NCBI GenBank assembly: GCA_013151415.1
Contig: JAADII010000144.1
Span: forward strand, 1-64,000
Reading direction: 5' to 3'
Length of the DNA: 64,000 nucleotides
Source: Chloroflexota bacterium
GTDB lineage: Bacteria > Chloroflexota > Anaerolineae > J102
This document shows positions 14,718 through 17,726 of this stretch, piece by piece. Every line of letters begins with the position of its first letter. Positions within the stretch are counted from its first letter, which is position 1. Made by a program: the position numbers and the translations under genes. The notes beneath the pieces are model-generated. The model was not told the origin of the DNA. It made no database searches and saw nothing but the letters and a program-made list of their open reading frames with translations.

Positions 14718-17700
14718 ATGCTCAATCCTCTATCTCGCTTTATGGATCGTGAAAGATTGAAGATTTTGTGGCGGCTGTTGACCCTCATTGGGTTGGCGGG
14801 GCTGGTCGCTTTGATCGCAGCCTGGATATGGCGTTGGCGGCGACGTTGGGCGGTGGGCGTGAAGGAATCGCCCGCGGCGCCGATTTCGTTGGTTGAGCGC
14901 GTCGAAGGTTTGAGCGAGGCCGAAGCCGCTGCGCGACGACAACCCGATGTTGACAACGCGCTTTTATTCAAGCCGCCTCGCTCTCGCAAGCAGATCATTC
15001 GCGAGAATGCGTTCACGATTTTCAACCTTGGTTTGGTGGGCATTATCTTTGTGCAATTGTTGTTGGGCAAGCCGTTGGACGCCTTGATGAGCGTGGGCGT
15101 GCTCATCTTTACCGTTGCAGTGAATGTGGGGCAGGAAGAGTTTGCCCGGTTGCGATTGCGCAGGCTGTTGCAAGAGTCGCGACCCAAAGCCACCGTGATT
15201 CGCGAACGCAAGGTGCGTAGCATCGATGCGGCCGAGATCGTGGTGGGCGACATGGTGGCCGTGGGACCGGGCGATTTGATCTTGGTGGATGGTCGCGTGG
15301 TGGGCGAAGGCCAGCTTTTTGTGGATGAATCGGCTCTTTTTGGCGGAAGCGGAAGAGTGGCGAAGGCCGCTGGCGATGAGGTGTACGCTGGCGGCATTTG
15401 CCTACATGGTCGCGCCGTCATCCAAACCGAGCGCGTCGGCTCTCAGCGTCGTGCGATGGCGCGATTGCAAGAGCTGGAAAAGGCCCCGCAAGAACTGACG
15501 CCCATCGAGCGCACGGTGCAAACTGTGCTGCGCGGGTTGCTGGTGGTGGTGGTCCTGCTCGTCGCATTCTTGCTGATCTCCTATTTTCGCTTCGATCTTC
15601 CGATCGAGAACGATAAAATCATCGACGCGATCGGCGTCATTTTCAGCATTGCGCCAGCCGGTCTCTTTTTCATGATCGTGCTAACATACGCGGGTTCGAC
15701 CGTCGATTTGGCGCAACTGGGCGTGTTGGTGCACCGCGCGCGATCGGTGGAGTCGTTGGCCCAACTCGATGTGATTTGTTTTGGCAAGGAGGGCTTTCTT
15801 ACGGGCGCTCAGGTCGAGCTCAAATCGCCTCCTGGTCGCGCCCAGCCTTCACCGCTAAGCGAGGCGAAAATCCGCCAGATCGTGGGCGATTTCGCGCGCA
15901 GCATTTCTTTGGATAACACACTAACCCAGGCCCTGCAGGCTTCGTTCGAGGGTGAAAAGCGCGATATCGTGGAGGAATCGCCTTTTCTCGCGGTTCATGG
16001 TTGGAGCGCCGTCGTGTTCGATAATGACGATTTACGCGGAACATACGTGCTCGGTGAGCAAACTGTTTTGCAGCCTTATTTGCTCGAAGAGATGACAGAG
16101 GACCGCGAGCCAGAGGAGCGCCAGAGGCCGGCCATTTTCAAACGAGCCGCGTCCTGGAGCGGCGGTTTGACGCGTTTGCTCCGGCGCAAAGATAAAACAG
16201 CCCAGCCGAGCGCTGGCGTTGCGGGCAAGGGTGAGAGATCGCAAAAGGGCGATCCGTTGGCCGCGGATTTGCGTCGCGAAGAAAAAACGTCGCTTTTGGC
16301 GAGCGGAGGGCGGCGCTCGGAAAATGAGCTCGCGGCCGGTGAAGCGGGCGCAAAAGAGGCAGAACCCGAAGATGTTGGGACGCGCGGCCGGCTGCTCGCG
16401 CGCATTCGTCGCGAGGCGTTGCGAATATTGCCTCGCGGCAGGACCGATCAACGCAATGCGTTGGAGGCTGAGGAGATGGCGGTGATGGATGAGCGGCGAT
16501 TGCTCTTCGCCTACCTTCCTCTTGTAGAACGCTTGCAAGTCGGCGAAGAGTTGCATTTGCCTCAAGGCCTTATCCCTTTGGCCATGCTCGAATATCAAGA
16601 GAAAATCCGTCCCGAGGCCGTGGAGGCTGTGCGCATATTTGCCGAGCGCGGCGTGGAGATCAAGGCTTTCATCAGCGATTCCACTGAAAGATCGCAAACC
16701 ATTCTCCGCCGCGTGTTGAGACCCCTCTCTCTGGCGGCTGAAGAGAGCGATGTGATTTCTGCATCGGCTTTATCTTCCCTTGCGGATAATGCATTTCAAG
16801 AGGCGGTGCAAAGCAATGTCATTTTTGCTGGCGTCACGCCGACTTTGGCCGCTCGCGTGGTGCAAAGTTTGCGAGAGAGAGGCATGAAAGTGGGAGTGAT
16901 TGGTGATGGCGTGAGCGACATCCCGGCCATGATGCAAGCGGATCTGGCTATCACCACCAAGGACGGAAGCACGGCCGCGTTAAGCATGGCCGATATTGTG
17001 CTTCTCGACCGCTCTCCTCTGGTGGCTTCTAAAATGATCGATAAGGGGCAGCGCATTGTCAATGGCCTTTTGAATGTGCTCAAGCTCTATCTCACCCAGA
17101 TTCTCTACCTGTTGCTTCTTGTGTTGATTTTGCTGTTTACGGTGCGAGGATTTCCATACACGGGCGCTCAGGGGGGCGTGATCGCCGCGTTCACCATTTC
17201 TGTTCCTGGCGTGGCCATCTCGTTGTTGGCGCGACCGGGGCGTCCTCCCATGCTGCGCTTGGGGCGACTGTTGGCCGCATTTGTGTTGCCGGCGGGGCTC
17301 ACCATCGCCATGGCGGGCGCCGCGGTTTACATTATCTTTGTCCAACGCAACGACCACGCGTACGCGCAGGTGGCGTTGACTCACGCCCTCATGGTTATGG
17401 GCGCCTTGTTGGTGACGTTTATTCATCCGCCGTGGCGATGGCCGCTGTGGCGTCGCCCTCGCGCGGTCGATTTTGCGCCTGCGCTGATAGCGTTTCTTTC
17501 TTTGGGGCTTTTCGTCTTGATCACATACATTCCGTTGGCCCAAAAATTGCTCAAAATCCATCCGCTGGCATTTCCCCTGGAATACCTTTTCATTGTCGCG
17601 GTCGCGATGGTTTGGGCGCTCCTCTTTGTTTTTCTATGGCTCTTGATTTGGCTGTTGTCGATGGCGGTGACTCATGGCAGAAGAGCCGTCCCCCGCTCTC

Positions 17701-17726
17701 TCGCTCCTTCGTCCTTTTTCCGCTGA
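14718..17726 (+). CDS. HAD-IC P-type ATPase homologue, probable catalytically inactive pseudo-ATPase (CtpE-like layout)
   Basis: P-type architecture (VDESALFGGS, PAGLFFMIVLTYA, DVICFGKEGFLTG, GDGVSDIPAMMQADLAI) with key catalytic residues replaced; checked against the nucleotide sequence (ttt ggc aag gag ggc ttt ctt acg). Confidence 0.85.
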   Translation: MLNPLSRFMDRERLKILWRLLTLIGLAGLVALIAAWIWRWRRRWAVGVKESPAAPISLVERVEGLSEAEAAARRQPDVDNALLFKPPRSRKQIIRENAFTIFNLGLVGIIFVQLLLGKPLDALMSVGVLIFTVAVNVGQEEFARLRLRRLLQESRPKATVIRERKVRSIDAAEIVVGDMVAVGPGDLILVDGRVVGEGQLFVDESALFGGSGRVAKAAGDEVYAGGICLHGRAVIQTERVGSQRRAMARLQELEKAPQELTPIERTVQTVLRGLLVVVVLLVAFLLISYFRFDLPIENDKIIDAIGVIFSIAPAGLFFMIVLTYAGSTVDLAQLGVLVHRARSVESLAQLDVICFGKEGFLTGAQVELKSPPGRAQPSPLSEAKIRQIVGDFARSISLDNTLTQALQASFEGEKRDIVEESPFLAVHGWSAVVFDNDDLRGTYVLGEQTVLQPYLLEEMTEDREPEERQRPAIFKRAASWSGGLTRLLRRKDKTAQPSAGVAGKGERSQKGDPLAADLRREEKTSLLASGGRRSENELAAGEAGAKEAEPEDVGTRGRLLARIRREALRILPRGRTDQRNALEAEEMAVMDERRLLFAYLPLVERLQVGEELHLPQGLIPLAMLEYQEKIRPEAVEAVRIFAERGVEIKAFISDSTERSQTILRRVLRPLSLAAEESDVISASALSSLADNAFQEAVQSNVIFAGVTPTLAARVVQSLRERGMKVGVIGDGVSDIPAMMQADLAITTKDGSTAALSMADIVLLDRSPLVASKMIDKGQRIVNGLLNVLKLYLTQILYLLLLVLILLFTVRGFPYTGAQGGVIAAFTISVPGVAISLLARPGRPPMLRLGRLLAAFVLPAGLTIAMAGAAVYIIFVQRNDHAYAQVALTHALMVMGALLVTFIHPPWRWPLWRRPRAVDFAPALIAFLSLGLFVLITYIPLAQKLLKIHPLAFPLEYLFIVAVAMVWALLFVFLWLLIWLLSMAVTHGRRAVPRSLAPSSFFR

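Follow-up and report, generated by a model that had tools for sequence, protein, structure and literature searches.

P-type ATPases are defined by the aspartate that becomes phosphorylated during the reaction cycle. Without it no phosphoenzyme can be formed and there is consequently no Post-Albers cycle and no pumping. In the stretch of Chloroflexota DNA analyzed here (64,000 nucleotides, the whole of which we call the window), an apparently complete P-type ATPase gene lacks this residue, which raises the question of what such a protein is for. The open reading frame (14718-17726, + strand, as for all gene features given below) starts with ATG, encodes 1002 amino acids and contains no internal stops. 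We annotate it as a pseudo-P-type ATPase gene, P6/CtpE-like and predicted to be catalytically dead. Automated annotation would not reveal this: the protein scores 109.6 bits for the Pfam A-domain family E1-E2_ATPase (PF00122, cut-off 28.1) and 115 bits for the NCBIfam 'HAD-IC family P-type ATPase' (cut-off 62.3), with a marginal HAD domain match (27.7 bits, cut-off 26.4). That a protein predicted to be dead clears the P-type ATPase cut-offs of both collections should make annotators cautious. DKTG is present in each of the genome's eight other P-type ATPases.

An earlier note, made from the sequence of the window, had pointed out three altered motifs within a full-length frame, and each could be located by coordinate. 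The phosphorylation loop DKTGTLT reads GKEGFLT (15783..15803), with the catalytic aspartate replaced by Gly356. The dephosphorylation motif of the A domain, DESxLTGES, reads DESALFGGS and has lost its glutamate (15324..15350). In the Mg-binding motif GDGVND, read as GDGVSD, Asn733 is substituted by serine (16902..16919). Degeneration further extends to the TGD motif (AFISDST for ..SGDxP, 16665..16685), the hinge-lysine segment (AGVTPTLAAR for GRITPxQKxR with the lysine changed to Ala711, 16827..16856) and the N-domain segment ESPFLAVHGWS, where Gly428 takes the place of the canonical nucleotide-site Lys/Arg (15975..16007). The unwound ligand-site motif of M4 reads SIAPAGLFF (15645..15671) as opposed to the canonical VP[E/N]GL. 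The PEGL-type motif is thus absent, IAPAGL standing in its place, and the coordinating residue has become alanine while the kink proline is retained. Given the missing aspartate, it follows from established chemistry that a protein of this sequence can neither go through the Post-Albers phosphorylation cycle nor pump. Residual nucleotide binding may persist because Phe423 is retained.

We searched for relatives in several ways. A search of related genomes returned six orthologues from the window's family (G004, G005, G009, G015, G017 and G019), with identities of 42-50%. A contig scan for clade-specific patterns in one genome per species (85,462 species) recovered the same six while missing the basal members, and gave a single weak match outside the phylum (L050, Dojkabacteria, 29%). 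Three further carriers, from two other families, came from a profile search of the class (397 genomes), namely G495 with a 981-residue open frame, G557 with two contig-edge fragments and G688 with the C-terminal half only. Weaker matches across the phylum were canonical pumps with DKTGTLT. The ten carriers, all from the class Anaerolineae and spread over three families, form one clade; this is a small sample in which L013, L087 and L088 are contig-edge fragments. In two maximum-likelihood trees, containing seven and ten clade rows, the clade forms a single branch with support of 100/100 inside the canonical group. L086 and L087 branch off first, followed by L088, L012 and then the window protein with the rest, and the sister of the ten-row clade is the pair L017 and L095, both with DKTGT. 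By sequence, the clade descends, through a single origin, from a Chloroflexota lineage of active P6 (CtpE-like) cation pumps.

Catalytic residues were compared in an alignment of 62 rows, comprising 52 canonical relatives and the ten clade members. The phosphorylated Asp, the TGES Glu, the TGD Asp, the hinge Lys and both the Asp and Asn of GDGxND are kept in all 52 canonical sequences. In the clade the catalytic Asp is absent from all nine members that cover position 356, and the replacement varies: G, G, N, A, S, N and G in the window's family and G in both L086 and L087, with L088 not reaching this position. Glu210, Asp654, Lys711, Asp730 and Asn733 correspond to positions invariant in the canonical set and are gone in most or all of the window's family. 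The window protein itself still has Asp654, Asp730 and Asp734, which most of the clade has lost. At the hinge-Lys position the window's family shows A, M, M, L, M and I; L086 has K and L088 has G. Only L086 and L087 keep the TGES glutamate, as TGEA. A complete GDGVND is confined to L088, and partially preserved forms occur in the window protein and L012. Gly428 replaces the nucleotide-site Lys/Arg in all covering members. A substitute nucleophile was considered and rejected, since only G, N, S or A occurs at position 356 and only E, S, A or T two positions further on. Taken together, the reading as a pseudo-ATPase is well supported at the level of sequence, catalytic residues being gone across an entire clade. 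The earlier suggestion that the phosphorylation and dephosphorylation steps changed together does not hold as history. Since the basal L086 and L087 lack the Asp yet retain the TGE glutamate, and L086 also the hinge Lys, it is simplest to assume that the Asp had already gone when the sampled clade began to diverge and that the remaining machinery decayed later and unevenly, as would be expected once constraint on catalysis had been lifted.

Loss of the catalytic residues was not accompanied by relaxed selection. In the unsaturated pair L086 and L087 (dS 0.36, dN 0.093) dN/dS is 0.25, and this pair provides the firm estimate, the values of 0.11-0.42 in other pairs coming with a high dS that makes them unreliable in the window's family. 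By region, dN/dS in L086/L087 is 0.10 for M3-M4, 0.19 for M1-M2, 0.20 for the A domain, 0.19 for the phosphorylation loop with the N domain and 0.14 for the second N/P part, and rises to 0.51 in a cytosolic insert and 0.61 at the N terminus. Based on these sequence comparisons, the gene clade is under purifying selection although the Asp is already gone. What is conserved has also changed. Compared at the same overall identity (47%), clade members resemble one another more closely than canonical pumps do in M3-M4 (0.61 vs 0.45), M5-M6 (0.64 vs 0.48) and M7-M10 (0.43 vs 0.33). The reverse holds for the phosphorylation loop (0.46 vs 0.69) and the HAD part (0.42 vs 0.58). Judged by alignment, constraint has shifted from the motor to the membrane, including helices M5-M10 (residues 767-989, 17016..17684), which are more conserved than in canonical relatives of equal divergence.

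An AlphaFold model built from the 62-row alignment (pLDDT 81, pTM 0.79) shows A, N and P domains and eleven membrane helices, with M4 broken at Pro313 (helix break at residues 311-313) and the insert disordered; canonical pumps make up most of the rows behind it, which may bias the model towards their fold. With a seven-sequence clade alignment the pLDDT was only 43. All matches listed by Foldseek are P-type ATPases, the best being a Listeria Ca2+-ATPase (E 1.4e-34, TM-score 0.51). TM-scores near 0.5 may reflect a differing domain arrangement or model error. The P-type fold, with A, N and P domains and a ten-helix core, is thus predicted to be intact.

In addition to its losses, the clade has acquired features of its own. 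The modeled eleventh helix, M0, is an extra N-terminal transmembrane segment (residues 11-44, 14748..14849; hydropathy peak 2.34 at residues 20-38) followed by an Arg-rich stretch. An N-terminal extension of 45-63 residues is present in every clade member with an assembled N terminus, compared with mostly 5-30 residues and a few long cases among canonical relatives. Canonical P6-like proteins with extensions of 120-162 residues are L071, L077 and L057, and canonical open frames of 1169-1174 residues occur in G411 and G393. The long charged cytosolic insertion described in the earlier note is real and occupies residues 456-590 of the N domain (16083..16487). It measures 135 residues in the window protein and 77-135 in full clade members, as opposed to about 16 in most canonical relatives, and is mostly disordered in the model (pLDDT below 50 over residues 459-557, helix at 559-569). 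Two basic segments recur by eye, one resembling GRxGRLxRR and the other FxRxRxRxxxxxR. Residues fixed in the covering clade members and rare in canonical relatives include Lys118, Asn136, Arg146, Arg244, Asp330, Gly428, Glu628 and Gln794. Asp330, at the cytosolic end of M4 (codon 15705..15707), is found in every covering clade member, the corresponding residue being Arg in 50 of the 52 canonical relatives.

Combining these lines of evidence, a real and selected clade of catalytically dead P6-like ATPases is close to certain. The three observations that the earlier note had named as speaking against its idea were not made: close homologues do not carry DKTGT, the missing Asp is not a sequence error and selection is not relaxed. 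Because the residues that burn ATP are gone and ten Chloroflexota genomes nevertheless retain a protein under selection, its function is very probably something other than pumping. The proposal of repurposing rather than random decay is well supported by descent in one clade, intact frames, a dN/dS of 0.25, shared gains and membrane conservation.

Genomic context offered few clues as to this function. In the window the gene is preceded at 235 bp by a divergent EamA transporter gene on the other strand and followed at 140 bp by an alanine racemase gene; neither neighbor is common to the relatives, and a shared operon was rejected. Among the contexts compared we found no neighbor conserved across the clade, no adjoining gene for an active pump and no hint of lipid flipping. 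In G004, G009 and G017, of one genus, a gene for a 213-residue multi-helix membrane protein overlaps or abuts the start of the pseudo-pump gene (L044:43-690, L045:9214-9855 and L049:5292-5933) and has no Pfam match above cut-off. This upstream gene was rejected as a partner, because the window's genome lacks it and congeners that have no pseudo-pump still carry it. The pseudo-pump is missing from some genomes of the same genus and therefore seems dispensable there. In G014 and G012 stop-riddled short frames behind the 213-residue gene resemble the pseudo-pump N terminus by eye, without a tblastn match (L133:854-1202, where the G014 contig stops after 345 bp, and L141, G012:C318, below 1531). 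From this sequence resemblance, the pseudo-pump was probably lost in both.

As to what the protein does instead, we are inclined, if only somewhat, towards a repurposed pseudo-pump that lacks a phosphoenzyme cycle and serves, by way of its membrane domain, as a sensor or scaffold. The choice of sensor or scaffold over conduit or channel partner is itself held at little better than even confidence and is reached largely by exclusion and from the location of the constraint. Such a protein would act via its membrane core, that is M1-M6 with the kinked M4 and the newly fixed polar residues Asn136, Asp330 and Gln794, while relaying a signal or binding a partner would fall to the A, N and P domains together with the tethered basic insert, no ATP being turned over. 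Of the roles put forward in the earlier note, sensor and scaffold are compatible with the sequence data. A flippase partner is unsupported, since at the threshold applied the search turned up no active P6 paralogue in nine of the ten carriers and no neighbor points to lipid flipping.

The main rival is a passive conduit, an ATP-independent channel, facilitator or lipid scramblase gated or regulated by its cytosolic domains, which we consider unlikely overall but the best of the alternatives. The best conserved part of the protein is the membrane core, the M4 kink proline is kept with alanine at the cation-coordinating position (already Ser/Ala in the active sisters), and new polar residues lie in or near membrane helices, all of which would suit a conduit. 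However, few polar residues are invariant in the clade and some of these sit at helix ends, and a simple leak needs no intact A, N and P folds.

Less probable still is a dead subunit that regulates an active P-type pump or flippase. Regulation of active paralogues is common among pseudoenzymes, and the window's genome offers eight DKTG-bearing P-type ATPases. An active P6 paralogue at threshold, however, occurs together with the dead protein only in G015, the two matches in G557 being pieces of the dead gene itself. A partnership with an active P6 pump is unlikely because the nine other carriers show none at that threshold, and no active pump gene was seen next to the pseudo-pump in the contexts compared.

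Slightly behind this we place an auxiliary subunit or regulator of a neighboring pentameric ligand-gated ion channel. Channel homologues of 630-655 residues with an extra N-terminal part (PF02931, E 1e-12 to 1e-15) are encoded beside the basal pseudo-pump genes (L109:4308-6257, L110:3908-5878 and L112:1882-3780). The channel gene adjoins on the same strand upstream in G557 and downstream in G688, and lies upstream in G495 with a response-regulator gene in between, so that two arrangements exist. A homologue with 51% identity is found elsewhere in the window's genome (G000:C67:60017-61852). Against this, adjacency is missing in the window's family, the channel search gave no match in G005, G015 and G019 and only 57 residues in G004, and G010, G535, G012 and G014 have the channel without an intact pseudo-pump.

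A gene that is decaying towards loss, some residual constraint being left, would account for the varied active-site losses and the disappearance from some congeners. It is nonetheless very improbable given full-length, intact frames through several families at 36-50% identity, core domains at dN/dS 0.10-0.20 in the close pair, a membrane core more conserved than in active pumps and gained features common to the clade. A sequencing or assembly error, for which the fragmentation of the window's genome (197 contigs) might be invoked, can be excluded for practical purposes because the Asp is also missing, with different residues in its place, from eight relatives in separately assembled genomes.

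The fold and the parent family are already known. The parent group was identified as the P6 ATPases (TC P-type family 23), a name that rests on literature and signature; the family includes CtpE, which mediates Ca2+ uptake in mycobacteria and has reported orthologues in Chloroflexi (PMC5615198, PMC10654040). Our canonical relatives also had matches in Actinobacteria, Firmicutes and Cyanobacteria, in agreement with the published CtpE distribution. The window protein shares with P6/CtpE the domain order, ten core membrane helices, a kinked M4 and 'LGA' for 'KGA' in the N domain. It differs in its degenerate Asp, TGES, TGD, hinge Lys and GDGxND motifs, in the change from PEGL to PAGL and in its added N-terminal helix and long charged insert.

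Dead P-type members have hardly been described. In case of the human P-type-like protein TMEM94/ERMA, a cryo-EM study found no ATPase activity (PMC12134183), which is contested (PMC13322241). TMEM94 likewise has P-type-like domains, ten helices and no TGES, but it is eukaryotic and a candidate Asp (D417) has been proposed, whereas here the Asp is plainly gone clade-wide; the likeness is at superfamily level. Plasmodium guanylate cyclase beta carries a degenerate P4-ATPase-like domain (PMC6592433) that was similarly retained after losing most signature residues. That domain is cyclase-fused, P4-like and eukaryotic, while the window protein is stand-alone, P6-like and bacterial. In the literature searched, with subscription journals mostly outside its scope, we found neither a stand-alone bacterial clade of dead P-type ATPases nor a paper joining the terms 'P-type ATPase' and 'pseudoenzyme'. 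With graded losses and a clear active sister group, the role of the P-type fold without phosphorylation becomes testable.

A stepwise conversion of a pump into a non-catalytic device, either a gated conduit for passive flux or an accessory subunit of the pentameric channel, is a speculative and rather doubtful scenario; were it true, the surviving intermediates would record the succession of losses in the catalytic machinery. A change in substrate handling may have preceded the loss of catalysis, since in the sister pair L017 and L095, with DKTGT intact, the ion-coordinating position of M4 is already Ser/Ala (APSGL, APASL). More widely, the catalytically intact P6-like proteins L017, L095, L019, L041 and L042 all lack Glu/Asn in the M4 motif PxGL, reading APSGL, APASL, VSAGL, IPAGL and ISAGM, which suggests altered substrates among these active members.
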